From Croceivirga sp. (lineage in GTDB: Bacteria > Bacteroidota > Bacteroidia > Flavobacteriales > Flavobacteriaceae): a DNA stretch of 61,226 bases. Position numbers and translations under genes: made by a program. Below, in pieces: positions 22,227 to 55,639 of this stretch (the first letter of the stretch is position 1; every line of letters begins with the position of its first letter). Below the pieces are notes generated by a model that saw nothing but the letters and a program-made list of their open reading frames with translations, searched no databases and was not told the origin of the DNA. Location: contig JANQKR010000025.1 in assembly GCA_028281025.1 (NCBI GenBank), positions 1 to 61,226 on the forward strand, given 5' to 3'.

Positions 22227-22269
22227 TGATAAATATCATGTTTTTTCCGGCATATGAATTCTACTTTTA
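22227..22269 (+). promoter_or_regulatory. FNR-type promoter of tonB (operator TGATAAATATCA, -7 TACTTTTA)
   Basis: The palindrome TTGATAAATATCAT (22226-22239) is close to the FNR consensus TTGAT-N4-ATCAA. Its centre (22232.5) is 29.5 bp from the first T of TACTTTTA (22262-22269). The predicted start of transcription, around 22275, is 6 to 18 nt upstream of the two possible ATGs. Confidence 0.72.
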
Positions 22270-22292
22270 TCAACAAATAAATGTTAAATGTC

Positions 22293-23018
22293 ATGGAAGT
22301 CAAGAAAAACCCAAAAGCCGATTTAAATCGAAATAGTGGCCTATATTTTGTGATTGGGCTGACTATAGTATTGTTTGCCACTTGGCGTATGTTGGAGCAC
22401 AAAACCTATGTCTCCGATGAAGAATTCGTCAATGTATTGAATGTAATGGATGAAATGGATGAAGAAGTGCCAATTACCGAAACCTTAAGGACCGCTCCGC
22501 CCCCACCCCCACCAGCAGCTCCAGATGTTATTGAAGTTGTGGAGGATATAGAGGAAGTGGAAGAGACCATCATTGAAAGTACCGAGAGTAGCCAGGACAA
22601 GTTTGTTGAGGATGTGGTGGTAAGTGTTGATGATGTCGATGTTGGCGAGGAAGAGGAAGAGATTTTGGTTCCATTTGCGGTTATTGAAAACGTTCCCGTA
22701 TTTCCAGGTTGTGAAAACCTGAGCAGTGAAGCGGAACGCAAAGCTTGCTTTAACCAAAAAATCCAGGAACATATTCAAAAGAATTTTAATTATCCGAAAA
22801 CTGCCCTGGAAATGGGCATTAGTGGAAGGGTCTTCGTACAGTTCGAAATTGATGGTACCGGTAAAGTTTCCGGCATTAGAAAACGTGGACCAGACCGCCT
22901 TTTGGAAGAGGAAGCTGTTCGAATCATAGCTTCACTTCCACAGATGAAGCCGGGAATGCAGCGTGGCCGTCCAGCAAAAGTTGGCTATAGTATCCCTATT
23001 AATTTTATGATGCAATAG
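22293..23018 (+). CDS. tonB: Energy transducer TonB
   Basis: Periplasm-spanning protein that couples ExbB/ExbD energy to outer-membrane receptors. Start chosen at 22293 (MEVKKNPKADLNRNSGLYF), the usual N-terminus in the phylum; an ATG at 22281 would add four residues. A membrane anchor (residues 16-33) is followed by a Pro-rich and acidic linker and a C-terminal TonB domain (about 150-241) with YPKTALEMGISGRVFVQFEI. The gene has an FNR-type promoter and may serve the copper receptor at 29066 under low oxygen. Confidence 0.92.
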   Translation: MEVKKNPKADLNRNSGLYFVIGLTIVLFATWRMLEHKTYVSDEEFVNVLNVMDEMDEEVPITETLRTAPPPPPPAAPDVIEVVEDIEEVEETIIESTESSQDKFVEDVVVSVDDVDVGEEEEEILVPFAVIENVPVFPGCENLSSEAERKACFNQKIQEHIQKNFNYPKTALEMGISGRVFVQFEIDGTGKVSGIRKRGPDRLLEEEAVRIIASLPQMKPGMQRGRPAKVGYSIPINFMMQ

Positions 23019-23043
23019 CTGGGTTTCCATAACATTCATTTTG

Positions 23044-23077
23044 GCCCCGGAGTCTTTAAAAGCTTCGGGGCTTTTTT
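23044..23077 (+). terminator. Rho-independent terminator of tonB
   Basis: A 9-bp stem GCCCCGGAG/CTTCGGGGC (23044-23052 with 23063-23071) is followed by six T. It overlaps the stop codon of the convergent M14 gene. Confidence 0.8.
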
Positions 23078-24269
23078 ATTGCCATGGTGCTTTTTGGTAG
23101 TCCGTGGCCTTGGAATTGCGTTCCCTATTTTTTAAGACCAAATGGGTTTTGTCCATTTCCCGGGTCCTGTATCCCAGTAAGTGGAAAAAAGACTTTGCAA
23201 AAAATCGGGCAATCCGTTTGTCCACGTAAAGCGCATCTTTTTTGGCAGACGCCCATTTCACGCCCGGCAATAAGGCCAAAAAATCATCAACCCTTAACTT
23301 TCTAAGATATTTTGACAACCACAGGAAAAAGTACGGGATGCTCCTAATAAAGTAAAAGCCTTCGTAACCCTTATCTTGGTAAAGCGGCATGAACAATTGC
23401 CTACTTTTGTCCGTGGTTATTGAAGTGCCTTGGGCCATGGAAATTGTAGTGCCCTTGGGTACGGTTTGAAAATTGATAAAACCTGGGAGCATTTCAAATT
23501 CCTCGCCCTCTTTAATTAGATACTGATAGTAGATTTCAAAGAAACGTTTTGGGGTCCTGGACTTATTCAGCTTCATCCGCAAGGTCTTGAGCTCTTGCTT
23601 GTGCATGGGGCAATACCCGGTGAGTCCCAGGGTATACCAAATAAAGTTTTCCGCGTTTACGATGGCTTTGATATCGCCATGTTGTCCACTTTCAAAGCCA
23701 AAGGCCACATACCCCAAATCGTTGATATAACTCAGTAAAGCCCCTGTTAAGTACTCTTCAATGCCAAGAATACTGGGCAAGGGAAAGTTTCTGGTGAACC
23801 TCCGGTTCAACAGGCTGTCATTCATGACAATAAAAGGTTCCGTTTCACCGGAAGTAGTGTGTAAATCAATGAAGTAAAATGGTGGGGAGGCGGTTTCCAA
23901 AATCTGGTTGATCAAGGTATGCAATGACAGCATCTCTTTCTCTTCAATACTTCTGGAAGGCTTGGGGGCGGACAGGCTTTCCATTCTATGGGGAAACCAT
24001 ATCCTGTTCAAGTCTTCATCAATAAAACGGGCATCCATCGGTAGTGCCGATAGATTACCGGCAATACCAAAAAATTCACCGGAAAAATGGGCGGATCCGT
24101 CCTCCATCCGGGAAAAAACATTCTGCAAGGCCTTGACCCCAGCGGGCTCGTTTCCGTGAATGCCCCCAAAAAACACTATCGTTGGGCCTGGAGCTTCTCC
24201 TTTAATATGGCCAATAATCCTATGTACCTCTTTAGAGGTCCCATTTATTGTTGTAACAGGTTGGGGCAT
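23076..24269 (-). CDS. Succinylglutamate desuccinylase/aspartoacylase-like M14 zinc hydrolase
   Basis: Predicted zinc-dependent amide hydrolase of the AstE/AspA branch of M14. The 397 residues carry the zinc motif FFGGIHGNEPAG (HxxE) near residues 33-44, the Arg/Asn pair in DEDLNRIWFPH near 85, and the third ligand in FIDLHTTSGETEP near 145. The substrate is unknown. Its ATG shares one base with the stop of the upstream GCS2-CBS gene (TAATG, 24267-24271), so the two proteins are translationally coupled and probably act on the same compound. Confidence 0.82.
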   Translation of the reverse strand: MPQPVTTINGTSKEVHRIIGHIKGEAPGPTIVFFGGIHGNEPAGVKALQNVFSRMEDGSAHFSGEFFGIAGNLSALPMDARFIDEDLNRIWFPHRMESLSAPKPSRSIEEKEMLSLHTLINQILETASPPFYFIDLHTTSGETEPFIVMNDSLLNRRFTRNFPLPSILGIEEYLTGALLSYINDLGYVAFGFESGQHGDIKAIVNAENFIWYTLGLTGYCPMHKQELKTLRMKLNKSRTPKRFFEIYYQYLIKEGEEFEMLPGFINFQTVPKGTTISMAQGTSITTDKSRQLFMPLYQDKGYEGFYFIRSIPYFFLWLSKYLRKLRVDDFLALLPGVKWASAKKDALYVDKRIARFFAKSFFHLLGYRTREMDKTHLVLKNRERNSKATDYQKAPWQ

Positions 24270-26116: not shown

Positions 26117-26133
26117 AAGGAGCTTCTTTTTAA

Positions 26134-26176
26134 CAAATCTAACGATCCGTAGGCGTTGAAAACATGACAATTATCA
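26134..26176 (-). promoter_or_regulatory. FNR-type promoter of the GCS2-CBS/M14 operon (operator TGACAATTATCA, -7 TAGATTTG)
   Basis: Operator at 26165-26176. On the minus strand the -7 TAGATTTG (26141 to 26134) is a perfect TAnnTTTG match exactly 29.5 bp from the operator centre (26170.5). The leader to the ATG at 26116 would be about 12 nt. Confidence 0.72.
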
Positions 26177-26204
26177 GCCTAGAGGCTTTGAAAATATGCC
26201 GAAA

Positions 26205-26247
26205 TGACATTTATCATATTTTCTTTGGTCGAACGCTAATATTTTTG
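26205..26247 (+). promoter_or_regulatory. FNR-type promoter of hemN (operator TGACATTTATCA, -7 TATTTTTG)
   Basis: Operator at 26205-26216, centre 26210.5. The -7 element TATTTTTG begins at 26240, again 29.5 bp away. A second operator for the divergent gene lies 40 bp to the left. Confidence 0.75.
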
Positions 26248-26265: not shown

Positions 26266-27624
26266 ATGTGCAATTTAACGAGCAAATATAATGTTCCCGG
26301 CCCGCGTTATACCAGTTATCCAACTGTCCCGTACTGGGATGGGGATTATTTCTCCGGTAAAAAATGGAAGGAAAGTGTAAGGCAACGCTTTGATGAGTCT
26401 GGGAAAGAGGGCATAAGTGTTTATATCCATCTCCCCTTTTGTGAAAGTATGTGCACTTTTTGTGGTTGCCATAAAAGGATTACCAAAAAACATGAGGTGG
26501 AAGCACCTTATATCAATACATTACTTAAGGAATGGGTACTTTACCGGGATATTCTTGGAAAAAAACCTTTGATCAAGGAACTGCATCTTGGTGGAGGAAC
26601 ACCCACTTTTTTTTCACCGGAAAACCTGACCCGCCTCATCAATGGTATATTTAGGTTTGCCGATAGGGCCCCCGATGCCGAACTAAGCTTTGAAGGCCAC
26701 CCGAACAATACGACCAAAGCACATTTACGGGCCCTCTATGATCTGGGATTTAGAAGGGTTTGCTTTGGTGTACAGGATTATAACGAAAACGTACAGTTGG
26801 CCATAAATCGGATACAACCTTTCGAAAAGGTGAAGTCCGTAACGGAAATGGCAAGGGAGGTTGGTTATACCTCAGTTGGGCACGATTTGGTCTATGGATT
26901 GCCATTCCAATCCGTGGATGATGTGAAGAACACCATTGAGCATACCAACATAGTAAGGCCCGATCGTATCGCTTTTTATAGCTATGCCCACGTTCCCTGG
27001 CGAAAGGGAAACGGACAACGTGGATTCCTGGATAGTGACCTTCCCAATACGGAGGATAAAAAACTGCAGTATGAAATTGGGAAACAGTGGTTGTTGGCCA
27101 AAGGCTACAAGGAAATTGGAATGGATCATTTTGCGGTGGAATCGGATGACCTTTACCTAGCTATAAAGAAAGGGACCTTACACCGGAACTTTATGGGATA
27201 CACCCCTTCCAAAACCCAGTTAATGATTGGACTTGGGGCAAGTAGCATAAGCGACAGTTGGCATGCTTTTGCCCAAAATGTGAAGAGCATTGAAGAATAC
27301 CAACATTTAATAGCACACGATATTGTTCCCGTATATCGCGGACATATTTTGAATGATGAGGACAAATTGATCCGCAAACACATTTTAAATTTAATGTGCC
27401 ACTTTAACACCTCTTGGGACGTTGAACAGACCCAACATTTGGACTTTGGCCACATTATGGACAACTTGCGCGAATTGGAGACGGATGGATTGGTCCGTAT
27501 GGGTTCCAATAGCATTGAAGTTACAGAAAAAGGAAGACCATTCATTAGAAATATAAGTATGGCATTTGATCTAAAATTACACCGAAAGCAGCCGGAAACC
27601 CGTCTGTTTTCAATGACTGTCTAA
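26266..27624 (+). CDS. hemN: Oxygen-independent coproporphyrinogen III oxidase (radical SAM)
   Basis: Converts coproporphyrinogen III to protoporphyrinogen IX without oxygen for haem synthesis. The start ATG at 26266 gives MCNLTSKYNVPGPRYTSYP, the family N-terminus; the longer frame from 26164 would run through the promoter and operator. The radical SAM cluster motif is CESMCTFCGC near residues 57-66, followed by LHLGGGTPTF. The length of 452 residues is normal. Predicted FNR-type control fits induction when oxygen falls. A usp gene follows after 37 nt. Confidence 0.95.
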   Translation: MCNLTSKYNVPGPRYTSYPTVPYWDGDYFSGKKWKESVRQRFDESGKEGISVYIHLPFCESMCTFCGCHKRITKKHEVEAPYINTLLKEWVLYRDILGKKPLIKELHLGGGTPTFFSPENLTRLINGIFRFADRAPDAELSFEGHPNNTTKAHLRALYDLGFRRVCFGVQDYNENVQLAINRIQPFEKVKSVTEMAREVGYTSVGHDLVYGLPFQSVDDVKNTIEHTNIVRPDRIAFYSYAHVPWRKGNGQRGFLDSDLPNTEDKKLQYEIGKQWLLAKGYKEIGMDHFAVESDDLYLAIKKGTLHRNFMGYTPSKTQLMIGLGASSISDSWHAFAQNVKSIEEYQHLIAHDIVPVYRGHILNDEDKLIRKHILNLMCHFNTSWDVEQTQHLDFGHIMDNLRELETDGLVRMGSNSIEVTEKGRPFIRNISMAFDLKLHRKQPETRLFSMTV

Positions 27625-28564: not shown

Positions 28565-28607
28565 TGATAAAAGTCAGTTTTTCCCTTCCGTATACCCCCT
28601 ACTTTTG
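28565..28607 (+). promoter_or_regulatory. FNR-type promoter of the copper-receptor operon (operator TGATAAAAGTCA, -7 TACTTTTG)
   Basis: Operator 28565-28576, centre 28570.5; perfect -7 TACTTTTG at 28600-28607, offset 29.5 bp. Transcription would begin near 28613, so the GTG at 28612 is unlikely to be the start and ATG 28624 is preferred. Confidence 0.75.
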
Positions 28608-32376: not shown

Positions 32377-32419
32377 TAAAGATTAAAAGACATTTTTATC
32401 CTTTATATGACATAAATCA
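32377..32419 (-). promoter_or_regulatory. Possible FNR-type promoter of rrf2 (shared operator, weak -7 AATCTTTA)
   Basis: The nos operator (32408-32419) has on its minus side AATCTTTA (32384 to 32377) at the same 29.5-bp offset, 12 nt from the probable transcript start to the rrf2 ATG. The first T and last G of TAnnTTTG are missing, so this is weaker than the plus side. Confidence 0.35.
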
Positions 32420-32450
32420 TATTTTTCATAAATAACCACCATTATTTTTG
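32408..32450 (+). promoter_or_regulatory. FNR-type promoter of the nos operon (operator TGACATAAATCA, -7 TATTTTTG)
   Basis: Operator centre 32413.5, -7 TATTTTTG at 32443-32450, offset 29.5 bp. The operator is extended to a near-perfect palindrome TATGACATAAATCATA. The leader to the cytochrome ATG is about 18 nt. Confidence 0.75.
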
Positions 32451-32473: not shown

Positions 32474-32980
32474 ATGAAAATCAATATTTCAATTTTAGCT
32501 TGCTTGTTTGCTTTAATCCTTGTTGGATGTGGAGGTAAAACGGAAAAAAAAGAAGAGGGTTTTAGTGTAAATAGGAAAAAATCTCCCGAAAAAGTAGAAC
32601 AAAGTACTCCTGAAACCAACGATGTTCCTGCCTCCCAACGCATAACCTTGGACAACAAAGGGGTTGGGCAGATCAAGGACATTACCTTGGACCCGGAAAT
32701 AGACCAGGCCATGGCAAATGCGGGCGGTGAACTCTTCAAGACCAATTGTACGGCCTGCCATAGAGCGGACAAGCGTTTTATTGGTCCAAAAATGCAGGGC
32801 ATTTTGGAACGTAGGAGTCCTGAATGGGTAATGAACATGATCTTGGATCCCCAACTCATGGTTGAGGAGGACCGTTGTGCCAAGGATTTGTTGGTGGAAT
32901 TCAACGGCGCTGCCATGTCCAACCAAAACCTTACCGTGGAACAGACCCGTTCCCTACTGGAATATTTTAGAACACTCTAA
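32474..32980 (+). CDS. c-type cytochrome lipoprotein of the nos cluster
   Basis: 168 residues. A lipoprotein signal with lipobox LVGC (Cys near 17) is followed by a charged linker and a single haem-binding motif CTACH near residue 94, with the distal Met probably in GPKMQGIL or AAMSNQNL. A likely electron donor to NosZ in the periplasm. It is the first gene after the FNR-type promoter and lies 12 nt before the fasciclin gene. Confidence 0.88.
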   Translation: MKINISILACLFALILVGCGGKTEKKEEGFSVNRKKSPEKVEQSTPETNDVPASQRITLDNKGVGQIKDITLDPEIDQAMANAGGELFKTNCTACHRADKRFIGPKMQGILERRSPEWVMNMILDPQLMVEEDRCAKDLLVEFNGAAMSNQNLTVEQTRSLLEYFRTL

Positions 32981-32992
32981 ATTTTTTATCAT

Positions 32993-33580
32993 ATGAAAGC
33001 AACGACCCGACTTAAATTTTTGGTTTATCCGCTGCTACTGCTTTTTTTGGCAGTGGGTTGTAATTCCGCAAACAAGACCGATAAATCCTCCAATTCACCG
33101 GAGGGTGTGGGTATAGAAACCAAAAAGGAACAGGGGCAGGCATTTATAGAGAACGATGAATCGACTCCCAATGTCCTGCAAATTGCCATTGGTTCACAGG
33201 ACCACACTACTTTGGTGGCTGCCGTGCAAGCTGCCGATTTGGAGAATGCCCTTGTTAATGCCGGACCCTTAATGGTGTTTGCACCAACCAATGATGCCTT
33301 TGCCGCCCTGCCCGAAGGGACAGTGGAAAACCTCTTAAAACCCGAAAATAAAGATGCTTTGGCCAACATTTTAAAGCATCATGTAACCCCGGGCAACTAT
33401 TCAAAGGATTTTTTGAAAAAGTTCAAAAAGCTTGGGCAAGCCAATGGCCAGGATGCACTGATTGAGGTTAAAGGTGATGACGTTTATGTGGGTGGGGCCA
33501 AAATTCTTGGCAGTGTTAGTGGCGGAAATGGAATTGTACACGTAGTGGATAAGGTTATCCTACCACCTTCCGAAGAGTAA
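32993..33580 (+). CDS. Fasciclin-domain lipoprotein of the nos cluster
   Basis: 195 residues with a lipobox (LAVGC, Cys near 23) and one fasciclin (FAS1) domain, about residues 60-195, with the H1-type block VFAPTNDAFAALPEGT, ILKHHVTPGN and NGIVHVVDKVILP. FAS1 proteins are adhesion or binding modules; their role in nos clusters of Bacteroidota is unknown. It is placed between the donor cytochrome and nosZ (31 nt gap), in the same operon. Confidence 0.88.
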   Translation: MKATTRLKFLVYPLLLLFLAVGCNSANKTDKSSNSPEGVGIETKKEQGQAFIENDESTPNVLQIAIGSQDHTTLVAAVQAADLENALVNAGPLMVFAPTNDAFAALPEGTVENLLKPENKDALANILKHHVTPGNYSKDFLKKFKKLGQANGQDALIEVKGDDVYVGGAKILGSVSGGNGIVHVVDKVILPPSEE

Positions 33581-33611
33581 ATAGCTAAATACCAATAAAT
33601 ACAATAAGACA

Positions 33612-35573
33612 ATGAAAAAAATCTATTATGTTATTGGCGGTCTTTTGGGAGCAACCCTACTTTATATGGGCTGTAATCAGGCCGCTGGTCCAAATACCAG
33701 TGGTGCCCTGGCATCATCCGCCGCCGAAAAGGTGTATGTTGCACCGGGTGAACAAGATGAGTTCTATGCCTTCCTTTCAGGGGGATATAGCGGAAACTTG
33801 ACGGTTTATGGACTTCCCTCTGGACGTATGTTCAAGGAAATTCCAGTGTTCTCCCAGTTCCCAACTTCGGGATATGGATATTCTGAGGAGACCAAACCCA
33901 TGTTGAATACCTCTTTTGGGTTTGTGCCTTGGGACGATTTGCACCACCCCGATATTTCCCAAACCAACGGGGAGTTGGATGGTCGATGGGTTTTTGTAAA
34001 CGGTAACAACACCCCACGTATCGCCCGTATAAGTTTGGAAACTTTTGAAACCGAGGAAATTATTGAAATACCCAATAGTGGTGGTAACCATAGTTCGGCA
34101 TTTATTACCGAAAATACGGAGTATGTTATCGCAGGAACGCGCTTCGCCGTACCTGTTCCACAACGGGATATGCCCATTAATGAGTACAAGGGGAACTTTA
34201 AAGGTGCGCTTAGTTTTATAAGTGTAGACCCAGAAACCGGCCGCCTGGATTTGAAATTTCAGGTATTAATGCCAGGTTTCAATTACGACCTTTCCCACCC
34301 CGGCCGTGGAAAATCACATGGATGGCACTTCTTTAGCACCTACAATACCGAGGAGGCAAACACCTTAATGGAAGTTAACTCCTCCCAAAATGACAAGGAT
34401 TTTATAGCTGCCATTAACTGGAAAAAGATTGAGGAATATGTGAATAACGGTGGCGGGGAGAAAATGGCTACCAACTATGCACATAATATCTATAGCCATG
34501 AAACCCATATGGGAACTTCAACAATGAAAAAAGAGGTGGTAACCGTTGACCCCACCAAAGTTCCGGATGCAGTGTTTTTCTTACCCACTCCAAAATCCCC
34601 CCACGGGTGCGATGTTGATCCTTCCGGTGAATACATTATTGGTTCCGGTAAGCTTTCGGCCGATTTGACCGTTCATTCCTTTACCAAAATGCTTGCTGCC
34701 ATTGAAGGCAAAAAGTTTGATGGTGAAGCATATGGCATTCCCATTTTAAGTTTTGATGATGTCATGGCCGGTATTGTAAAAAGTGGAGGTTTAGGGCCAT
34801 TACATACCGAATTTGATGCGCGGGGAAATGCCTACACTACGTTCTTCATTTCTTCCGAAGTAGTGAAATGGAGATTGGAAACTTGGGATGTGGTAGATAG
34901 AAAACCAACATTCTATTCAGTGGGCCATTTAATGATTCCCGGTGGAAACTCACGTAAACCATTTGGTAAATATGTGGTGGCCATGAACAAAATCACCAAA
35001 GATCGTTATCTGCCCACAGGTCCGGAAATGGAGCACTCCGCACAGATTTATGACATATCGGGCGAAAAAATGGAGTTGATCTATGATTTCCCAACACATG
35101 GGGAGCCACACTATGCAGCAGGATGTCCGGCAGAACTATTGGCATCCAAATCCAAGAAAATCTATCGCCTGGACGAAAACAAACACCCTTATGCGGTCAC
35201 CAATCCTGCAGAGGCCAGGGTAGAGCGTAATGGCAACGAGGTACACGTGTATATGAGTACCATCCGCAGCCACTTTACCCCGGATAATATTGAAGGCATT
35301 AAAGTTGGCGATAAGGTGTATTTCCATATTACGAACCACGAGCAGGACTTTGATGTTCCCCATGGATTCTCAATTATTGGACAGAATACTTCCGAGCTAT
35401 TGATTATGCCCGGACAGACCAAGACTTCCGTTTGGGAACCCAAACAAGTTGGTGTATGGCCATTTTATTGCACGGATTTTTGTTCGGCCCTTCACCAGGA
35501 AATGCAAGGGTACGTAAGGGTTTCCCCAGCCAATTCCAATATTGACCTTTCATGGTCACTGGGTGGTGAATAA
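33612..35573 (+). CDS. nosZ: Nitrous-oxide reductase, Sec-type (clade II-like), lipoprotein
   Basis: Reduces N2O to N2 in the periplasm. The 653 residues start with a Sec lipoprotein signal (LLYMGC, Cys near 21) and not the twin-arginine signal of classical NosZ. The beta-propeller holds His-rich CuZ elements (WDDLHHPDIS, NHSSAF, HGWHFF, ETHMGTS, PHGCDVDP, GPLHTEFD, GEPHYAAG), and the C-terminal cupredoxin has the CuA motif CTDFCSALHQEMQG. The context (NosL, D, F, Y and cytochrome c) confirms the assignment. No nirS, nirK or nor genes are in the window. Confidence 0.97.
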   Translation: MKKIYYVIGGLLGATLLYMGCNQAAGPNTSGALASSAAEKVYVAPGEQDEFYAFLSGGYSGNLTVYGLPSGRMFKEIPVFSQFPTSGYGYSEETKPMLNTSFGFVPWDDLHHPDISQTNGELDGRWVFVNGNNTPRIARISLETFETEEIIEIPNSGGNHSSAFITENTEYVIAGTRFAVPVPQRDMPINEYKGNFKGALSFISVDPETGRLDLKFQVLMPGFNYDLSHPGRGKSHGWHFFSTYNTEEANTLMEVNSSQNDKDFIAAINWKKIEEYVNNGGGEKMATNYAHNIYSHETHMGTSTMKKEVVTVDPTKVPDAVFFLPTPKSPHGCDVDPSGEYIIGSGKLSADLTVHSFTKMLAAIEGKKFDGEAYGIPILSFDDVMAGIVKSGGLGPLHTEFDARGNAYTTFFISSEVVKWRLETWDVVDRKPTFYSVGHLMIPGGNSRKPFGKYVVAMNKITKDRYLPTGPEMEHSAQIYDISGEKMELIYDFPTHGEPHYAAGCPAELLASKSKKIYRLDENKHPYAVTNPAEARVERNGNEVHVYMSTIRSHFTPDNIEGIKVGDKVYFHITNHEQDFDVPHGFSIIGQNTSELLIMPGQTKTSVWEPKQVGVWPFYCTDFCSALHQEMQGYVRVSPANSNIDLSWSLGGE

Positions 35574-35598
35574 CACAACAACTAACCAATAAAGAAGA

Positions 35599-35632
35599 AG
35601 CGGGTCTGGTGCCATTGGCCCGGCCCGCTTTT
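35599..35632 (+). terminator. Hairpin with short T-tract between nosZ and the next nos gene
   Basis: AGCGGG (35599-35604) pairs with CCCGCT (35624-35629), with inner CTGG/CCGG-like pairs, followed by TTTT. It could act as a partial terminator or 3' stabiliser that raises nosZ mRNA over the downstream assembly genes. Confidence 0.55.
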
Positions 35633-35644
35633 AAATTCAAAAGA

Positions 35645-36289
35645 ATGAAAAAAGCAAGTGTGTTGATGATGATAGGTTCAGCTTTGTTGCTGGGTCTTTT
35701 TGTTTTTCCCTTGTGGAACATTGAGCTTGGAGCACCACAATACCCTGAACCTTTAGGTCTTAATATCCATATTGATGGATTACAGGGTCAAAGTGAGTTT
35801 GATATTCAAAACATAGATGGGCTTAACCACTATATCGGCATGAAAACGCTTCCAAAGCCGGAAGATATGTGGGAATTCACCGTGTTTCCCATTGTCATTG
35901 GCGGAATGGCGGCAATAGGTATTCTAATTGGTCTTCTGGGATTTGTTGATAAACTTGGTCCTTCCTGGTTTTTTGGCTGGTTTGTGGTCATGACCATTTT
36001 AGGTATCTTGGGCATGTATGATTTTAATGCTTGGATGGTGGATTATGGGACAAACCTAGACCCCAATGCAATCATGAAACTTCAAAATCCGGATGGTACC
36101 CCAATGAGTTACAAACCTCCCTTGTTGGGACATAAAAAAATGCTGAATTTTGATGCCTATTCCTATCCCAGGTTAGGGGCGTATTTAATGTTTGTGGGGA
36201 TGTGCCTAACGCTATTTGCCGGATATATTGGAGTTAAAACCAGCACAAAAAGAACAAAATCACTGACCAAAAACATGGCAGCCACATGA
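35645..36289 (+). CDS. nos-cluster integral membrane protein (NosB-like position)
   Basis: 214 residues with four predicted membrane segments: MMIGSALLLGLFVFPLWN, VFPIVIGGMAAIGILIGLLG, WFFGWFVVMTILGILGMYDF and LGAYLMFVGMCLTLFAGYIG. The start ATG at 35645 (MKKASVL) is preferred to 35609, which lies inside the hairpin. The periplasmic loop between the first and second helix (about 65 residues) has no Cys. Proteins like this follow nosZ in clade II clusters (compare NosB of Wolinella by position); the function is unknown. It overlaps nosL by 4 nt. Confidence 0.75.
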   Translation: MKKASVLMMIGSALLLGLFVFPLWNIELGAPQYPEPLGLNIHIDGLQGQSEFDIQNIDGLNHYIGMKTLPKPEDMWEFTVFPIVIGGMAAIGILIGLLGFVDKLGPSWFFGWFVVMTILGILGMYDFNAWMVDYGTNLDPNAIMKLQNPDGTPMSYKPPLLGHKKMLNFDAYSYPRLGAYLMFVGMCLTLFAGYIGVKTSTKRTKSLTKNMAAT

Positions 36290-36711
36290 AAAAGGGAATC
36301 GTCTGTTTTCTGTTCTTCACCTTGGGATGTTCCATTGGTCCAAAGCCCATTGTTTATGGAGAAACTTCCTGTCATTTTTGTAGCATGACCATTGTGGATA
36401 AGCAGCATGCCTCCCAACTGGTCACCAATAAGGGAAAGGTGTTCAACTTTGATGCTATAGAGTGCATGTTAAACCACCTTAACGAGGTTGAAGAACAGAA
36501 AATAGGCCTTCTTTTGACCAATACCTATCATGACCCAGAGGACTTGATGGATGTCACCAAGGCAACGTTTTTGATCAGTGAAGGCATTCCGAGTCCCATG
36601 GGGGAATATTTAACGGCTTTCAAGACCTTGGAGGAAGCCCAAAAGGCACAGCAGGAACACCAGGGGGAAATCTTTACTTGGGAAGAACTCAGGGCCAGGT
36701 TCAGGAAGTAA
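36286..36711 (+). CDS. nosL: NosL copper chaperone lipoprotein
   Basis: Cu(I)-binding lipoprotein that delivers copper to apo-NosZ. The 141 residues have a lipobox (FTLGC, Cys near 14) and the family core ETSCHFCSMTIVDKQHASQL with the Cys-x2-Cys-x-Met motif, followed by FNFDAIECM. The ATG overlaps the preceding gene (ATGA). Confidence 0.92.
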   Translation: MKKGIVCFLFFTLGCSIGPKPIVYGETSCHFCSMTIVDKQHASQLVTNKGKVFNFDAIECMLNHLNEVEEQKIGLLLTNTYHDPEDLMDVTKATFLISEGIPSPMGEYLTAFKTLEEAQKAQQEHQGEIFTWEELRARFRK

Positions 36712-36730
36712 TATTTTTAAAAATACATCC

Positions 36731-37030
36731 ATGTATACCATCAATGTAAATAGTACTATTGCGAAACAGTCCTTTGAAGGTGTACAGGTCAAGCAACTGG
36801 TAAAAAGCAGGAATTTTGAAGTATTGAGCATCAGTATTGCCAAAAATGCCGTTTTCCCCACACATAAATCCCATGAAGATGCCCATTTGATCGTTATGGA
36901 AGGTAAGATCACCTTCCATATTGAGGGAAATTCCATAAATCTGGTGGAACAACAAGAGTTTAGTTTTCCAAAGAACGTAGCGCATTGGGTAGAAGCTTTG
37001 GAAGACTCCAAATTCCTTATTATCCGTTAA
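36731..37030 (+). CDS. Small cupin-domain protein of the nos cluster
   Basis: 99 residues forming one cupin barrel: motif 1 around PTHKSHEDAHLIVMEGKITF with a His-x3-His pattern and motif 2 around FPKNVAHWVEAL. No signal peptide, so cytoplasmic. It may bind a metal or small ligand; the role is unknown. Its TAA shares one base with the ATG of nosD (37028-37032), showing tight coupling. Confidence 0.8.
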   Translation: MYTINVNSTIAKQSFEGVQVKQLVKSRNFEVLSISIAKNAVFPTHKSHEDAHLIVMEGKITFHIEGNSINLVEQQEFSFPKNVAHWVEALEDSKFLIIR

Positions 37031-39781: not shown

Positions 39782-39824
39782 TGACTTTTATCATGTTAAT
39801 CCAAAGGAAGTACACGTAACTTCA
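39782..39824 (+). promoter_or_regulatory. FNR-type promoter of the CBS-domain gene (operator TGACTTTTATCA, -7 TAACTTCA)
   Basis: Operator centre 39787.5, TAACTTCA at 39817-39824, offset 29.5 bp. The -7 is the weakest of the set (TTCA for TTTG), consistent with need for an activator. Confidence 0.65.
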
Positions 39825-48764: not shown

Positions 48765-50966
48765 TTATTTGTTTTCTGACAGTAAACCGTCGTTGTCCTT
48801 TACTTTAATATCCGTACCCAATCTTTGCAGATAGGCAATCAAGGAAACAATCTCGCGATCGCGCATTTCCACAAACTCCTCCCCATTTTCCTGGGCATAC
48901 TTTTTATCCGCCTCGTAGGTCCTCACAAATTCCGGATCGCTATAAAGGTTTTTCTCTATTTGAAGTGCCTGTTCTGCCATTGATTGCTGTGCATTGGTAA
49001 TGTCCTCATCCGTGTAAGGAACGCCCAAGGTCACCATTGCATTCATTTTGGCTTCAACACCACTTCTATCGTGCTTATTTTTCACCAACCATTGATAGGC
49101 GGGCATAATCGATCCTGCGGAAGTACTTTGCGGGTCGTACATATGGTTCAAATGCCAGTTGTCCGAATACTTTCCTCCTACCCGGAGTAAATCAGGTCCC
49201 GTGCGCTTACTTCCCCAAAGGAAAGGATGATCGTAAACAAACTCACCTGCTTTGGCATACTCACCATAACGTTCCACTTCACTTCGGAAGGGCCGAATCA
49301 TTTGGGAGTGACAACCCACACATCCTTCACGGATATAGAGGTCACGTCCTTCCAACTCCAATGGAGTATAGGGTTTAACACTTGTAATGGTGGGGATATT
49401 GGATTTTACCAATAAGGTTGGGATAATCTGGACGATCCCTCCAATCAATATGGCCACTGTGGCCAAAATGGTCAATTGAACCGGTCTTCGTTCCAACCAG
49501 GTATGGAAGGTCTCCCCAGCGGTCCTTCTACCGGTGACCCTTGTCAAAGCGGGGGCCTCTGCTAACTCATCCTCAACCGCACTTCCTTTTCTAATGGTCA
49601 CGATAACATTGTATACCATGATCAGCATTCCCACAATAAAGAGGGTACCTCCAATGGCACGCATCCAATACATGGGGATGATCTGTTGTACCGTTTCCAA
49701 GAAGTTACCGTATACCAAAGTTCCATCTGGATTAAACTCCTTCCACATGAGTGCTTGGGTAAAACCGGCAACGTACATGGGCAAAGCATACAGCACGATG
49801 CCCAGGGTACCTATCCAAAAATGAAGGTTGGCCAGCCCTTTGGAATATAAGGTGGTCTTGAACATCTTTGGCACCAAATAGTAAATCATACCAAAGGTGA
49901 GGAAGCCATTCCACGCCAAGGCACCAACGTGTACGTGGGCAATGACCCAGTCACTAAAGTGGGCAATGGCATTTACATTTTTTAGGGACAGCATGGGTCC
50001 TTCAAAAGTGGCCATACCATAACCGGTAATGGCTACCACCATGAACTTCAATGTAGCATCACTCCGCACCTTGTCCCAAACACCCCTAAGGGTCAACAGT
50101 CCATTGATCATACCACCCCAGGAAGGTGCAATAAGCATTACTGAAAACACAACCCCAAGATTTTGGGCCCAATCCGGCAATGAGGAGTACAACAAATGGT
50201 GCGGCCCGGCCCAGATGTAAATAAATATCAAGGACCAAAAGTGGACAATTGACAATCTATAGGAATATACCGGCCTGTTTGCGGCCTTGGGCACAAAGTA
50301 ATACATGAGGCCCAAGAATGGAGTGGTTAAAAAGAAGGCCACGGCATTATGCCCATACCACCACTGAACCAAGGCATCCTGAACCCCGGCGTACACTGAA
50401 TAACTTTTTAAGGCAGCCACCGGCAATTCCAGGCTATTGAAAATATGCAGTACCGCCACCGTGACAAAAGTGGCTATATAAAACCAAATGGCCACATATA
50501 AATGGCGTTGTCTCCGTTTGAGGATCGTACCGATCATATTCCAGCCAAAAACAACCCAAATCAACGCAATGGCAATATCTATGGGCCATTCCAACTCTGC
50601 GTATTCTTTTGAGGTGGTAATCCCTAAAGGAAGGGTAATTGCGGCCGACACAATAATGAGCTGCCAACCCCAAAAATTGATGTTGCTCAGCGCATCGCTG
50701 AACATCCTTGCCTTTAGCAATCGCTGCAAGGAGTAATATACCCCGGCAAAAATGGCGTTGCCCACAAAAGCAAAAATCACGGCATTGGTATGCAATGGAC
50801 GAAGACGCCCAAAACTTAGCCACGAAATGCCATCGGTCAGGTTGGGAAACAAGAACATAAAGGCCAATAAAAGGCCTACCACCATTCCCACAACTCCCCA
50901 TAGCATCGTGGCATAGAGAAATTTTTGTACGATTTTATTATCGTAGTGAAATTGCTGTACTTCCAT
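48765..50966 (-). CDS. ccoN: Fused cbb3 oxidase subunits I and II (CcoNO)
   Basis: 733 residues reduce oxygen to water at high affinity and pump protons. The first 475 residues are CcoN: twelve-helix haem-copper core with PLHTNAVIFAFVGN, the CuB ligands in VQWWYGHNAVAFFLT and GPHHLLYSS, and the haem ligand in VIAHVHVGALAWNGF. A linker leads to a CcoO-like part with the haem motif CVGCHSQM near residue 568 and the sequence GPDLLRVGGKYSDNWH. Fusion of N and O is usual in Bacteroidota. It lies 2 nt after ccoS. Confidence 0.96.
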   Translation of the reverse strand: MEVQQFHYDNKIVQKFLYATMLWGVVGMVVGLLLAFMFLFPNLTDGISWLSFGRLRPLHTNAVIFAFVGNAIFAGVYYSLQRLLKARMFSDALSNINFWGWQLIIVSAAITLPLGITTSKEYAELEWPIDIAIALIWVVFGWNMIGTILKRRQRHLYVAIWFYIATFVTVAVLHIFNSLELPVAALKSYSVYAGVQDALVQWWYGHNAVAFFLTTPFLGLMYYFVPKAANRPVYSYRLSIVHFWSLIFIYIWAGPHHLLYSSLPDWAQNLGVVFSVMLIAPSWGGMINGLLTLRGVWDKVRSDATLKFMVVAITGYGMATFEGPMLSLKNVNAIAHFSDWVIAHVHVGALAWNGFLTFGMIYYLVPKMFKTTLYSKGLANLHFWIGTLGIVLYALPMYVAGFTQALMWKEFNPDGTLVYGNFLETVQQIIPMYWMRAIGGTLFIVGMLIMVYNVIVTIRKGSAVEDELAEAPALTRVTGRRTAGETFHTWLERRPVQLTILATVAILIGGIVQIIPTLLVKSNIPTITSVKPYTPLELEGRDLYIREGCVGCHSQMIRPFRSEVERYGEYAKAGEFVYDHPFLWGSKRTGPDLLRVGGKYSDNWHLNHMYDPQSTSAGSIMPAYQWLVKNKHDRSGVEAKMNAMVTLGVPYTDEDITNAQQSMAEQALQIEKNLYSDPEFVRTYEADKKYAQENGEEFVEMRDREIVSLIAYLQRLGTDIKVKDNDGLLSENK

Positions 50967-50968
50967 AA

Positions 50969-51160
50969 TTATTCAGTTTGACTTTTATTTTGGTTGTTAT
51001 TCTTATCGGTAGTATTCACCAGTTCATCTTCAAAAAGCATCCGGACGGACGGTGTATAGGAATCATCATATTGACCGCTCCTGACCGTAAAGATGAAAGC
51101 TGCAAAAAAGACAATAGCAACACACACACTTATGCTCAGTAACACATAAATTACGCTCAT
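50969..51160 (-). CDS. ccoS: CcoS cbb3 maturation protein
   Basis: 63 residues: one membrane helix (VIYVLLSISVCVAIVFFAAFIF) then SGQYDDSYTPSVRMLFED, the CcoS mark. Needed in model bacteria for cofactor insertion. It is the first gene after the FNR-type promoter and heads the ccoS-NO-Q-P-G unit. Confidence 0.9.
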   Translation of the reverse strand: MSVIYVLLSISVCVAIVFFAAFIFTVRSGQYDDSYTPSVRMLFEDELVNTTDKNNNQNKSQTE

Positions 51161-51179: not shown

Positions 51180-51222
51180 TAAAACTACCTTTATGATTCA
51201 TTGAAAAAAATGACATTTATCA
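51180..51222 (-). promoter_or_regulatory. FNR-type promoter of the cbb3 operon (operator TGACATTTATCA, -7 TAGTTTTA)
   Basis: Operator 51211-51222, centre 51216.5. On the minus strand TAGTTTTA (51187 to 51180) is 29.5 bp away. The leader to the ccoS ATG (51160) is about 14 nt. Confidence 0.74.
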
Positions 51223-51644: not shown

Positions 51645-51662
51645 TCCGTTTTTGTTTTGCGT

Positions 51663-54035
51663 TTATGTTTTGAATTTTGAACCTATATAATTTGTGGCAA
51701 TTGTGGTAAAGACCACTATACTAATGGAGCTCAAGGGCATCAAAATGGCCGCAATTACAGGTTTTAACTGACCGGTCACAGCAAAATACAAGCCTACTAC
51801 ATTGTAGCAAAGCGACAATAAAAAACTCAGTTTTATGATACCAATGGATTGTTGGGAAAGCTTTAGGAACCTAGCTAGCCTTGTTAGCTTGCCAGCATCC
51901 AAAATAGCATCACAGGCAGGTGAAAACACATTTACATTTTCCGAAACCGCTATACCCACGTTACTCTGGGCCAAGGCACCGGCATCATTGAGTCCATCCC
52001 CGACCATGAGTACATTTGAATGCTCTTGTGATTTTTTAACGAACTTGAGTTTGTCTTCCGGCTTTTGGTCAAAAAACATGGGGAGTTGAAAAGGAAACAT
52101 TTTTTCCAGCTTTTTCCGTTCCCCATCGTTGTCCCCGGACAGAATGACCAATGAAAAGTTCGTCATGAGCCCTTTAAAGAGGGTAACCAGACCTTCCCTG
52201 TATTTGCTTTTGAACACAAAACGGCCCTTGTAATTTTCATCTGCACTAATATGGACCGATGTCTCCGCCTTTGTCCCTTCTTGGGTGCCAACATAGTTTG
52301 CAGATCCCACTTTCATGGTGTGCTGTCCCAGTTTTCCCTTAACCCCTTTTCCAGTATGTTCGGAAAATTCATCCAATGTCTTTATCTGACAACTTTCTAA
52401 AATGCTGTACAATTCCCTGCTCAGGGGATGGTTTGAAGCACGCAGGGTATTCTTGAGCAAAGAAGCTTCATCATCGGTCAATTCCATGCCCTCGTAGACA
52501 ATGGTATTCCCTGAATTTGAAGTCAGTGTCCCTGTTTTATCAAAGACAACGGTATCTATTTTGGCCAATCTTTCTATGGTATTCGTGTCTTTAAGGTAAA
52601 AACCGTTACGGCCAAAAATTCGCAATAGGTTGCCAAGGGTGAAAGGTGCGGCCAATGCAATGGCACAGGGACAGGCGATGATCAAAACCGCCGTAAAGAC
52701 ATTGAGCGCCTTGGATGGGTCCTGCCACAACCAGTACGATGTGGCAATGGTGGCAATGGTCAGAACCGCAATAGTGAATCGTTTACCTATGGCGTCGGTT
52801 AGGGTTTGGAATTCACTGGCCTTGTTTTTTGCAAAGGCAGAATTGCTCCACAACTGGGTAAGATAACTCTGGGATACGGATTTTATGGCCTCTATTTCAA
52901 GTACCCCGCCCAATTGTTTGCCTCCGGCGAACAACTTATCCCCCGATGATTTGGGTACGGATTCCGACTCCCCGGTGACAAAGCTATAATCAATCTGCGC
53001 ACGTCCATGGATAAGGATGCAATCCACAGGAATAATTTCCTGATTACGGACCAAAAGCCTATCGCCCTGTTTGACCCTATAAATTTCGATGTTCTCTTCC
53101 CCATCATTTTCGGTTACCCGGGTCACCCCAATGGGGAAATAGGATTTGTAGTCCCGCTCGAACGATAGATGGGCATACGTCTTTTGTTGAAAAAACCGTC
53201 CTACCAATAAGAAGAATACCAAACCTGTAAGGCTATCAAAAAAGCCTGAACCCAAATCAAAGACGATATCCACCGTACTTCGTATGAACAAGGTCAGGAT
53301 TCCCAAGGCTATGGGAACATCAATGTTCAACAACTTGGAGCGCAATCCTTTAAAAGCCGAAGTGAAGTAATCCTGGGAAGCGTAAAAAACCACGGGCAGG
53401 GAAAAGGAAAACATTAACCATCTAAAGAAGGTCTTGTATTGATCCAACCAATACTCCTGGACTTCAAAATACTCCGGAAAAGAAAGGAGCATTACGTTCC
53501 CAAAAGAAAAACCGGCAACTCCCAATTTATAGATAAGGTTCCGGTCCACCTTCTTTTTTGCCTGGGAATAGTCCTCAAGGACAATGGACGGCTCGTACCC
53601 TATTTTGGCCAACAATATGGCAAGCTCCTTTAGGTTCAGCCCTTCACTATCAAAGGTTATTCTGGCCTTTCGTTTTGGAAAATCAACCTGGGAACTTTTG
53701 ATAAAAGAACTTAATCTGTTTAAATTTTCCAGCACCCAAATACAGGAACTGCAGTGCATATGTGGTATATGGAATTCAACCACTTGAATCCCATCTTCAT
53801 TAAAATCCAGTAGCTTCTCCGCCACCTCTGGATTTTCCAAAAAATCAAACTTATTGGCCACCTCTTTGGGAGTGGCCCCAGCTGCGCTTTCCAGATCGTA
53901 ATACCCTTCCAATCCGCTCGTGTGAAAAATTTCATAAACGGTCTTGCAACCATTGCAGCAGAAGTTTTTTTCATCAAATAGGACAGCCGTACGCCCACAA
54001 GGGTCACCACAATGGTAACAGGTTGAAGATGACAT
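51663..54035 (-). CDS. ccoI: Copper-translocating P1B-type ATPase (CcoI/FixI type)
   Basis: Exports Cu(I) to the periplasm for cbb3 assembly. N-terminus: a Cys-rich CYHCGDPCG and NFCCNGCKTVYEIF, then a metal-binding domain with HMHCSSCIWVLENL; eight membrane helices with IACPCAIALA (CPC motif), the phosphorylation site DKTGTLT and the hinge GDGLNDAGAL. The start at 54035 (MSSSTCYHCG) follows the predicted promoter; ATGs at 54041 and 54047 and a GTG at 54059 are alternatives, of which 54059 lies inside the -7 element. About 790 residues. Confidence 0.93.
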   Translation of the reverse strand: MSSSTCYHCGDPCGRTAVLFDEKNFCCNGCKTVYEIFHTSGLEGYYDLESAAGATPKEVANKFDFLENPEVAEKLLDFNEDGIQVVEFHIPHMHCSSCIWVLENLNRLSSFIKSSQVDFPKRKARITFDSEGLNLKELAILLAKIGYEPSIVLEDYSQAKKKVDRNLIYKLGVAGFSFGNVMLLSFPEYFEVQEYWLDQYKTFFRWLMFSFSLPVVFYASQDYFTSAFKGLRSKLLNIDVPIALGILTLFIRSTVDIVFDLGSGFFDSLTGLVFFLLVGRFFQQKTYAHLSFERDYKSYFPIGVTRVTENDGEENIEIYRVKQGDRLLVRNQEIIPVDCILIHGRAQIDYSFVTGESESVPKSSGDKLFAGGKQLGGVLEIEAIKSVSQSYLTQLWSNSAFAKNKASEFQTLTDAIGKRFTIAVLTIATIATSYWLWQDPSKALNVFTAVLIIACPCAIALAAPFTLGNLLRIFGRNGFYLKDTNTIERLAKIDTVVFDKTGTLTSNSGNTIVYEGMELTDDEASLLKNTLRASNHPLSRELYSILESCQIKTLDEFSEHTGKGVKGKLGQHTMKVGSANYVGTQEGTKAETSVHISADENYKGRFVFKSKYREGLVTLFKGLMTNFSLVILSGDNDGERKKLEKMFPFQLPMFFDQKPEDKLKFVKKSQEHSNVLMVGDGLNDAGALAQSNVGIAVSENVNVFSPACDAILDAGKLTRLARFLKLSQQSIGIIKLSFLLSLCYNVVGLYFAVTGQLKPVIAAILMPLSSISIVVFTTIATNYIGSKFKT

Positions 54036-54058
54036 ACACATTTGCATTATACCGAACA

Positions 54059-54101
54059 CAAAGATGGAATAAGGCGGCTTGGAAAAATATGACTTATGTC
54101 A
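54059..54101 (-). promoter_or_regulatory. FNR-type promoter of ccoI (shared operator, -7 CATCTTTG)
   Basis: The operator 54090-54101 has CATCTTTG on the minus strand (54066 to 54059) at 29.5 bp, one mismatch to TAnnTTTG. One palindrome therefore appears to serve both ccoI and the fnr-like gene. Confidence 0.65.
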
Positions 54102-54132
54102 TCTTTTATGGATCCGCGGAAAAGTACCTTTG
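54090..54132 (+). promoter_or_regulatory. FNR-type promoter of the first crp/fnr gene (operator TGACTTATGTCA, -7 TACCTTTG)
   Basis: Operator centre 54095.5; perfect -7 TACCTTTG at 54125-54132, 29.5 bp away. Its end is only 4 nt before the ATG at 54137, so the mRNA should be leaderless. Implies autoregulation if this regulator binds here. Confidence 0.72.
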
Positions 54133-54136
54133 TCCT

Positions 54137-54823
54137 ATGGGTAACTGCACAGAATTACAGTCCAGACAATTAAAGGATTTTGAATCGTTATCAAACGAGG
54201 TAAAGCAGGAACTTCTTAGGACCTCGGAATCCTTAAGCATCCCCAAAGGTGAGGTCATTTTCAAGGAAAACCAACCATTGCACAAACTATATTGCATAAA
54301 CAAGGGTGCATGTAAATTCAGTAAAGTGGATAACATTGGGCAGGAGCATGTCCTCCGTTTTTTGGGAAAGGGGGAAATCATGGGCAAACGCTCCCTACTC
54401 ACCAACAACGGCGCCGAGGTTAGTGCGGTAGCCCTTTCCGATACTGAATTGTGCTGTTTGGACAAAAACACCTTTTTGAAAAGTTTAAGGGAGAATCCCG
54501 GATTCCTCCAGGACTTTTTGGATGTCCTTATTGAAGATGTCAATATCAACGAATACACCCGTATCATCTTCTGTGTCCATAAAGGCATCAAACAACGTTT
54601 GGCCCATCTTTTGGTGTACTTGCTGAAGAAATATGGGGCCGATGGGAATGGTAGGCTCTGGGTACGATTAAAAAGGGAGGATATGGCTACCGTTCTGGGC
54701 ACATCACCTGAATATGTCATAAACCTTCTCACAAATTTTAAAAATGCAGGACTCATAAACACTGTAAGAAGCGAAATTCATGTTCTTTCCAAAGAGGGAC
54801 TGGAAAGAATTGGGAATTCCTAA
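54137..54823 (+). CDS. Crp/Fnr family transcriptional regulator (first copy)
   Basis: 228 residues: N-terminal cyclic-nucleotide-like sensor domain (about 15-130), dimer helix, and winged helix with recognition region KREDMATVLGTSPEYVINLL (Glu in the position that contacts the G of TGA in FNR). One N-terminal Cys (C4) and a Cys pair in ELCCLDKN, near the FNR Cys122 position, are seen, but no full FNR cysteine set. Start at ATG 54137 is forced by the promoter; 54023 would run through it. Best candidate, with the next gene, for the regulator of the TGAY-N4-RTCA sites. Confidence 0.9.
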   Translation: MGNCTELQSRQLKDFESLSNEVKQELLRTSESLSIPKGEVIFKENQPLHKLYCINKGACKFSKVDNIGQEHVLRFLGKGEIMGKRSLLTNNGAEVSAVALSDTELCCLDKNTFLKSLRENPGFLQDFLDVLIEDVNINEYTRIIFCVHKGIKQRLAHLLVYLLKKYGADGNGRLWVRLKREDMATVLGTSPEYVINLLTNFKNAGLINTVRSEIHVLSKEGLERIGNS

Positions 54824-54884
54824 AGAATTGCAGTTTTTATTTGCCATAGAACTCTTAATTTTAGACGTCAGGTAAATTTAAATT

Positions 54885-55577
54885 ATGGATAATAGCAGAT
54901 GTGAGAATTGCATCGTGCGACAATTCAATTCCCTACGGGCAATGAACAAGGAGGAATTGAAAAAAGTCTCCGATTCCAAAATCAGAAAATCAGTCAAAAA
55001 GGGGGAACCCTTGTTTGAGGAGGGTGAAAAACTCAATGGGGTCTATTGTGTTAGGTCTGGGGTTTCCAAACTTTCCAAGCTCAGTCCCAACGGTAAAGAT
55101 CAAATTGTTAAACTAGCTACCAAAGGGGAAGTAATGGGCCAAAGGTCCGTTATTGCCGAAGAACATTCCAACCTTTCCGCCGTTGCGGTCAGCGATATGG
55201 ATGTTTGTTTTATTCCCAAGGAAAGCATTACCACCACATTACAGAAAAATCCGAACTTTACCCTGGAAGTTTTAAGGCATATGGCCCATGAGCTCAAGGA
55301 AGCGGATGACGTAATTGTCAATATGAGCCAAAAAACCGTAAAACAGCGCATTGCGGAGGCCTTTCTTTATTTGAAGAACAATTTTGGGGAGGACAATGAT
55401 GGGTTTTTGGCCCTTACACTTTCACGTGAGGATATTGCCAACGTTGTAGGTACCGCCACGGAATCCGCCATTAGGATTATTTCTGAATTCAAAAAGAAAG
55501 GGTTGATCCATACCTCTGGAAAGAAGGTGGGCATTAAGGACGAGCGAAAGCTAAGGGACTTGGCCGAAGGATTTTAA
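54885..55577 (+). CDS. Crp/Fnr family transcriptional regulator (second copy, CxxC N-terminus)
   Basis: 230 residues, paralogous to the gene 61 nt upstream. N-terminus MDNSRCENCIVRQFNSL has a Cys-x2-Cys like FNR Cys20/Cys23, and DVCFIPKESI aligns with the FNR Cys122 segment (VCEIPFETL), but the Cys29 equivalent is Asn. The helix-turn-helix is SREDIANVVGTATESAIRII. It may hold an Fe-S cluster with a non-Cys ligand. Which of the two paralogues binds the shared operator cannot be told. Confidence 0.9.
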   Translation: MDNSRCENCIVRQFNSLRAMNKEELKKVSDSKIRKSVKKGEPLFEEGEKLNGVYCVRSGVSKLSKLSPNGKDQIVKLATKGEVMGQRSVIAEEHSNLSAVAVSDMDVCFIPKESITTTLQKNPNFTLEVLRHMAHELKEADDVIVNMSQKTVKQRIAEAFLYLKNNFGEDNDGFLALTLSREDIANVVGTATESAIRIISEFKKKGLIHTSGKKVGIKDERKLRDLAEGF

Positions 55578-55596
55578 CACAGCTTTTCTTTAAAGC

Positions 55597-55639
55597 TGAT
55601 AATTGTCATAGTATTACTATCCCTACCCTCCTAATTTTA
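55597..55639 (+). promoter_or_regulatory. FNR-type promoter of usp (operator TGATAATTGTCA, -7 TAATTTTA)
   Basis: Operator centre 55602.5, -7 TAATTTTA at 55632-55639, offset 29.5 bp. The leader to the usp ATG (55662) is about 17 nt. Confidence 0.72.

Follow-up and report, generated by a model that had tools for sequence, protein, structure and literature searches.

Description of the locus

Here, we describe a promoter pattern shared by genes for respiration, copper supply, haem synthesis and stress proteins in a 61,226-base stretch of DNA (the window) that is contig C38 of the 5.1 Mb draft genome G000 of Croceivirga sp. The window carries genes for a fused cbb3 oxidase subunit (ccoNO, with ccoS), the copper ATPase CcoI, HemN, N2O reduction (nos), TonB and Usp-family proteins, together with a tandem pair of Crp/Fnr proteins, F1 and F2 (Table 1). 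The element under study is the palindrome TGAY-N4-RTCA, which a first-pass annotation of this DNA had placed in ten promoters; it stands at one fixed distance from the -7 box and is probably the class II site of an FNR-type activator, most likely F2.

The fixed gap between palindrome and box

The window contains 14 TGAY-N4-RTCA palindromes, against 4.06 expected from 100 shuffles (standard deviation 1.94; highest shuffle 11); the first-pass annotation had estimated about four in 61 kb. With each palindrome read in both directions, a palindrome precedes each of the ten first-listed promoters, nine palindromes serving all ten, with the one at 54090 common to ccoI and the first crp/fnr gene. Exactly 23 bases separate palindrome and box at every one of them, so that the dyad centre lies 29.5 bp from the first base of the box, precisely the distance that had been claimed. 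The strict joined pattern (palindrome, 23-base gap, TAnnTTTG) is present six times and the relaxed box TA..TT ten times at this gap, whereas 200 first-order Markov sequences of window length have means of 0.0 and 0.03 and maxima of 0 and 1, respectively. Five of the six strict boxes belong to first-listed promoters and the sixth to usp1, an eleventh promoter that is absent from the first list, lies outside its interval and serves a usp gene at 20487-21278; the ten relaxed pairs are those of usp1 and of all first-listed promoters except ccoI. The boxes had been described as TAnnTTTG-like, which holds for eight, either strict or reading TAnnTTTA (tonB, ccoS and usp2), and holds only loosely for CBS (two mismatches) and ccoI (first base off). 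At four of the 14 palindromes (21404, 36545, 49535 and 60462) no -7 box follows at gap 23, a number near that expected by chance. The fixed-gap observation is confirmed, and coincidence is, as had been argued, very unlikely. The base before TGAY is mostly A or C and not T, a difference from the E. coli FNR consensus, which has T before TGA.

Scanning the whole genome with the joined pattern, a check proposed in the first-pass annotation, yielded 13 strict sites, six of them in the window, and none for the reversed pattern that was used as the genome-scale control. When the gap was varied from 10 to 40 bases, 13 of 22 matches fell at gap 23 and the other nine were scattered (reversed control, 1), and an off-gap control pattern (gap 15-21) gave a single match. 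Past each of the 13 strict sites, an open reading frame (ORF) of at least 100 codons begins no more than 84 bases from the box. Elsewhere in the genome, strict sites are found in front of a pyruvate-formate-lyase-like gene, ompW, a DUF7486 gene, a 215-residue ORF without Pfam match and a gene whose translation reads like a ribosome hibernation factor, and, in a gene cluster on contig C37, a usp and a DUF6544 gene. The pyruvate-formate-lyase-like gene and ompW suit a low-oxygen regulon. Allowing one mismatch yields 56 sites and the control 6, which means that about one in nine may be chance; genes with such sites include those for a multihaem cytochrome and a pyruvate phosphate dikinase as well as a TonB gene, and several other one-mismatch sites fall within long ORFs.

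A chance origin of the pattern is rejected by the shuffles, the Markov sequences, the reversed control and the gap specificity. Spread of a single duplicated promoter is unlikely, as spacers differ among the promoters and cores vary among orthologues.

Class II promoters of CRP and FNR have the activator centred at -41.5, and those of FNR serve low-oxygen targets that include pfl, ompW and hemN. In F. psychrophilum, the sigma-A box TAnnTTTG occupies -12 to -5 (PMC9723704); a dyad centre 29.5 bases before the box would therefore be at -41.5, which refines the position near -42 first proposed for the activator. With the box position borrowed from another flavobacterium, the palindromes thus have the predicted site centre of a class II CRP/FNR promoter. 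The boxes are those of a Bacteroidota sigma-A promoter, with A often as the last base and with ccoI (CAnnTTTG) and CBS deviating. Such promoters also have TTTG near -33; of the 10 window sites, 8 to 10 carry a T-run at positions 14-17, which is equally the flank of the dyad. By the same flavobacterial box rule, the F1 start codon (ATG, 54137) is the predicted first transcribed base, and the mRNA is possibly leaderless. According to the same study, the cbb3 oxidase is strongly raised when oxygen is limiting, and haem synthesis enzymes are raised as well (PMC9723704).

Table 1. Promoters and genes of the window; "kept" counts orthologous promoters, or F2 loci where so named, that retain the gap
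Feature	Position	Strand	Details
usp1 promoter	21316..21358	-	palindrome 21347-21358, box 21316-21323 TACTTTTG; kept 6/6
tonB promoter	22227..22269	+	palindrome 22227-22238, box 22262-22269 TACTTTTA; kept 6/6
GCS2-CBS promoter	26134..26176	-	palindrome 26165-26176, box 26134-26141 TAGATTTG; kept 4/4
hemN promoter	26205..26247	+	palindrome 26205-26216, box 26240-26247 TATTTTTG; kept 6/6
hemN, oxygen-independent coproporphyrinogen III oxidase	26266..27624	+	TIGR00538 409 bits (cut-off 325)
Copper-receptor operon promoter	28565..28607	+	palindrome 28565-28576, box 28600-28607 TACTTTTG; kept 3/3
nos operon promoter	32408..32450	+	palindrome 32408-32419, box 32443-32450 TATTTTTG; kept 3/3
nos operon (inferred from layout)	32474..39750	+	cytochrome c, fasciclin domain, Sec-dependent NosZ, NosL, NosD, ABC subunits (Pfam, NCBIfam)
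CBS gene promoter	39782..39824	+	palindrome 39782-39793, weak box 39817-39824 TAACTTCA; TA..TT at gap 23 in 7/7, G002 included
ccoNO (fused)	48765-50966	-	Pfam COX1 and FixO
ccoS	50969-51160	-	read by eye; with ccoNO spans 48765..51160
ccoS-ccoNO promoter	51180..51222	-	palindrome 51211-51222, box 51180-51187 TAGTTTTA; kept 5/5 and in 65/69 eligible F2 loci
ccoI, copper P-type ATPase	51663..54041	-	Pfam
ccoI promoter	54059..54101	-	palindrome 54090-54101, box 54059-54066 CATCTTTG
crp/fnr pair (F1-F2) promoter	54090..54132	+	ccoI palindrome 54090-54101, box 54125-54132 TACCTTTG
F1, Crp/Fnr protein	54137..54823	+	diverged tandem paralogue, helix PEYVIN
F2, FNR-like protein	54885..55577	+	C6, C9, C55, C108, helix TESAIR
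usp2 promoter	55597..55639	+	palindrome 55597-55608, box 55632-55639 TAATTTTA; kept 5/5 and in 73/80 F2 loci

For two genes in Table 1 the label goes beyond the domain match and comes from the first reading of the sequence: Pfam finds only the CBS part of the GCS2-CBS gene, and a TonB-dependent receptor in the copper-receptor gene. The hemN start codon was chosen from the ORF starts after the box, and the start regions of ccoS (by eye) and ccoI were read from the sequence. A gene for an Rrf2-family regulator (31928-32359) is divergent from the nos operon.

Conservation in related genomes

Orthologous promoters were compared in stretches of six related genomes and in one stretch of the near-identical G002 (seven genomes, nine promoters), skipping matches below 30% identity or 50% coverage and dropping genes unmatched in the fetched stretches. 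All 45 promoters recovered, five of them the ccoNO promoter, keep TA..TT at gap 23 while the palindrome cores vary, an outcome that favours the first-pass interpretation in a check which that annotation had itself proposed. In the orthologous stretches, the operon-internal nosZ and receptor genes have no palindrome of their own (0/3 each). The fetched stretches of G007, G009 and G010 gave no nos or copper-receptor match, their whole genomes not having been searched for these operons.

In a scan of 60 genomes, own genome included, the strict site was found in 49, and the 59 others total 385 sites against 9 in the control; most of the 11 site-less genomes are small. A phylum sample of 392 genomes has the strict site in 169, including all 46 of the window's own family (counted by hand from the table). 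The top counts in that sample belong to a distant genus, g188, whose four sampled genomes have 25-30 strict sites each (L186-L205; G327, G362).

Loci around F2 orthologues were also collected (the best 80 of 105); they were picked by their Crp/Fnr gene, so the nearness of a site to that gene is no evidence. In these loci 65 matches of the strict pattern fall at gap 23, and no other gap between 0 and 60 has more than 7; palindromes number 298 against 62 in reversed sequence, and both sides of the dyad carry A/T flanks. The deviating ccoI box, judged on the reverse strand in 50 site pairs, is itself conserved as [C/A/G]AnnTTTG (C 38, A 7, G 5, never T), with TTTG kept in 49/50. In 52 of the 80 loci, the 1.1 kb before the F2 orthologue contain a TA..TT site at gap 23.

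F2 as the candidate activator

F2 belongs to the Crp/Fnr superfamily by its Pfam domains (cNMP_binding, 69 bits; HTH_Crp_2, 58.8 bits), and its structure model (mean predicted local distance difference test score, pLDDT, 64) matches the fold of FNR and of PDB entry 2gau, titled as a Crp/Fnr family protein of P. gingivalis. The recognition helix has the Glu and Arg that read TGA in this family, and TGAY fits such an E...R helix. E193, I196 and R197, as well as C6, C9, C55 and C108, are found in 81/81 F2 sequences compared, and the Glu and Arg also in 66/66 more distant homologues, of which 53 have all four cysteines, 8 have none, 4 lack C55 only and 1 lacks the N-terminal stretch. FNR binds its iron-sulphur cluster with C20, C23, C29 and C122 (E. 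coli numbering); by phmmer, C6, C9 and C108 of F2 align with Cys of A. fischeri FNR, which we take to be cluster ligands, three out of four.

F1 and F2 share 35% identity across 201 columns; the F1 helix has Asn in place of the Arg (PEYVIN) and one Cys of its CxxC is lost. Of the two Crp/Fnr proteins, whose binding the first-pass annotation had suggested testing, only F2 keeps the helix Arg (81/81). Among the compared stretches (L206-L220), F1 accompanies the nos and copper-receptor operons in the window, G005, G006 and G008.

From these results, the palindromes are best explained as class II sites of an FNR-type activator, most likely F2, that governs a low-oxygen regulon (probability about 0.82); binding by F2, activation, the iron-sulphur cluster and oxygen as the signal are what we infer from the sequences. 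A dimer of F2 would bind the palindrome next to sigma-A RNA polymerase, with its centre at -41.5; these promoters retain the -7 box, and the T-run beside the site would make up most of their -33 region. In its active state F2 would then recruit polymerase to the genes for the cbb3 oxidase and for supplying it with copper and haem (ccoS, ccoI, hemN), and also to those for N2O reduction (nos), copper and TonB uptake, usp stress proteins and its own operon, with a pyruvate-formate-lyase-like enzyme and OmpW as predicted targets outside the window. A fall in oxygen is the probable signal, and its sensor would be an iron-sulphur cluster bound by C6, C9, C108 and one further ligand, which may be C55. 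The single circuit of N2O reduction, cbb3 respiration, copper import and anaerobic haem synthesis proposed at the outset is supported, and its gene set is widened by the pyruvate-formate-lyase-like gene and ompW.

Several observations weigh against this explanation. In the protein, the FNR Cys29 ligand is missing from F2 (Asn at this position in 81/81), so that three of the four FNR cysteines align; Fnr is the best NCBIfam model for F2, at 119.6 bits, below the cut-off of 228, so that F2 falls short of FNR proper on both counts; and the structure model is mediocre. At the promoters, 28 of the 80 F2 loci have no site at crp/fnr, so that general autoregulation is rejected, and a search of the 350 bp upstream of the homologue in 66 more distant loci found a site in only 2. 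Across genomes, many outside the class are without the site, most there having none or one (by eye, 392-genome sample). Two genomes of family f5 have sites together with an E..IR homologue that is without the F2 cysteines, so the signal may differ among groups.

A receiver-Crp hybrid with the same gap

Contig C37 carries, at 84-106 kb (L061, L062), nine Usp genes, an Hsp20 gene, a PAS-PAS histidine kinase and a hybrid protein of receiver, cNMP and HTH_Crp domains, whose recognition helix is the same ExxIR as that of F2. In 22 stretches (403 kb) around the hybrid and its homologues, 77 sites (75 distinct) with TA..TTT were found at gap 23, against 6 or fewer at any other gap. G+C occupies 100/300 core positions near hybrids, 10/772 near F2 and 2/40 in the window, while spacer G+C is alike near hybrids and F2 (44% and 43%); the sequences compared are related, and the P value computed for the contrast is therefore too strong. 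The receiver-Crp protein is the probable user of the usp-cluster sites. As these sites have the same gap but cores containing G+C, two paralogous systems appear to share one promoter slot.

A tentative extension, which we hold to have perhaps one chance in three, is that F2 represents an FNR type of the Bacteroidota's own, in which C55, in the beta-roll, has replaced a residue of the N-terminal loop as third ligand, and that this type and the hybrid would share the -41.5 slot, being told apart mainly by the core and flanks of the dyad. The joint occurrence of the four cysteines in the more distant homologues (all in 53/66, none in 8) points this way, as does a comparison of 220 distinct ORFs plus the F2 query: among sequences with CxxC and C108, a third N-terminal Cys at FNR-like spacing is found in 3/7 without C55 versus 2/146 with it. 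Under a looser rule (any third Cys no more than 12 residues from the pair) the contrast shrinks to 5/7 versus 41/146, in sequences that are related and not independent, which counts against this extension. The FNR-like third Cys without C55 is found in L256, L280 and L286, and L264 and L279 have both.

Presence of the site was also set against presence of the hybrid: 10 of the 11 site-less genomes have no hybrid match at 1e-20, yet neither do 4 of the 49 site-bearing ones (G040, G043, G046 and G054, of which G040 has an F2-like protein), a relation too weak to retain.

Alternative explanations

The strongest rival keeps F2 at its class II sites and replaces oxygen with nitric oxide (NO), redox state or haem as the signal, for which there is perhaps one chance in four. 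The nos genes and the Rrf2 gene (31928-32359) lie nearby, and the Bacteroidota relative PgRsp is reported to bind haem (PMC6955866); C6, C9 and C108, on the other hand, align with the FNR cysteines, and the targets are microaerobic respiration and a lyase of an oxygen-sensitive type, which argues for oxygen.

That the hybrid of C37 and its PAS kinase, rather than F2, drive the window promoters, as FixLJ-FixK does in rhizobia, is improbable. In its favour are the shared ExxIR helix, the identical gap in the hybrid's usp cluster and those of its homologues, and the greater number of sites in family genomes with a full-length hybrid (mean 13.4, n=15, versus 5.8, n=21). Yet the G+C-containing cores associated with hybrids differ from the cores near F2 and in the window despite the like spacers, and the same-genus genomes G003, G007 and G010 have no full-length hybrid match and still carry sites, G007 and G010 keeping window-type sites at the recovered orthologous promoters.

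Slightly less probable still is F1, or an F1-F2 heterodimer, as the activator. F1 is encoded directly behind a site and travels with the nos and copper-receptor operons in the compared stretches, but its helix Arg is lost and most F2 loci are without it (12 F1-type ORFs in 80 loci), yet most keep the ccoS and usp2 sites. Least likely of all is that the palindrome serves as the operator of a repressor or as an element read by a sigma factor: an extended promoter element could also produce one fixed distance, but the palindrome is a dyad of CRP/FNR-type half-sites at the position of class II activators, has A/T flanks on both sides in F2 loci and, at 54090, faces two divergent genes.

Relation to known systems

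FNR of E. coli and A. fischeri resembles the system proposed here in its Crp/Fnr fold, in TGA-type half-sites with a 4-bp core and in the three aligned cluster cysteines of four. The window differs in having the sigma-A box TAnnTTTG instead of -10/-35 elements and mostly A or C before TGA, and the F2 type differs in having mostly Asn or Ser at the Cys29 position, the extra C55, and an ExxIR instead of an ExxSR helix. The best solved-structure relative of F2, by sequence as well as by fold, is 2gau, which we take to be PgRsp; the match begins at F2 residue 20 and leaves the CxxC segment uncovered. PgRsp is described as a redox regulator of Bacteroidota, and no consensus site is given in the text available on it.

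The C37 domains comprise the kinase, receiver and Crp-type output of a FixLJ/FixK-like system. They resemble FixL-FixJ-FixK of rhizobia in having a PAS kinase, a receiver and a Crp-type output behind a TGA palindrome, and differ in that the receiver and Crp domains form one protein, inside a usp/Hsp20 cluster. HcpR2 of Bacteroides is likewise a Bacteroidota Crp/Fnr regulator of nitrogen-oxide genes; its motif is GTAACnnnnGTTAC and the predicted regulons hold hcp genes only in most Bacteroides (PMC1274295), unlike the TGAY-N4-RTCA site and gene set here. A bioreactor study predicted carbon sensing for CRP/FNR homologues in genomes of Ignavibacteria, Flavobacteriales and Saprospiraceae, and in that section reports no evidence of denitrification regulation by these homologues in those organisms (PMC8510549). 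No description of the palindrome site or of the 23-bp gap was recognised in the literature searched, which covers only a minority of subscription journals.

Neither FNR regulons nor class II promoters are new in themselves; what could be newer is the unusual set of cysteines and the apparent sharing of one slot. A dyad 23 bp before TAnnTTTG offers a testable rule for finding low-oxygen regulons of Flavobacteriaceae from sequence, and one predicted circuit would link Sec-dependent (clade II type) N2O reduction with cbb3 respiration, copper supply and anaerobic haem synthesis. In F2 the analysis puts forward a candidate sensor whose cysteines are unusually arranged, and in the receiver-Crp hybrid a second regulator, which apparently uses the same slot.

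Paired palindromes

The usp1 site (21347-21358) has a second palindrome 57 bp away, at 21404-21415, which lacks a box at gap 23; a pair at 56-57 bp by usp1 is also found in G005, G007, G009 and G010, and not in G006 or G008. The palindromes of the divergent GCS2-CBS and hemN genes (26165-26216) are 40 bp apart, as in G005, G006 and G008 (37 bp in G009), and each is therefore near -81.5 of the other promoter.

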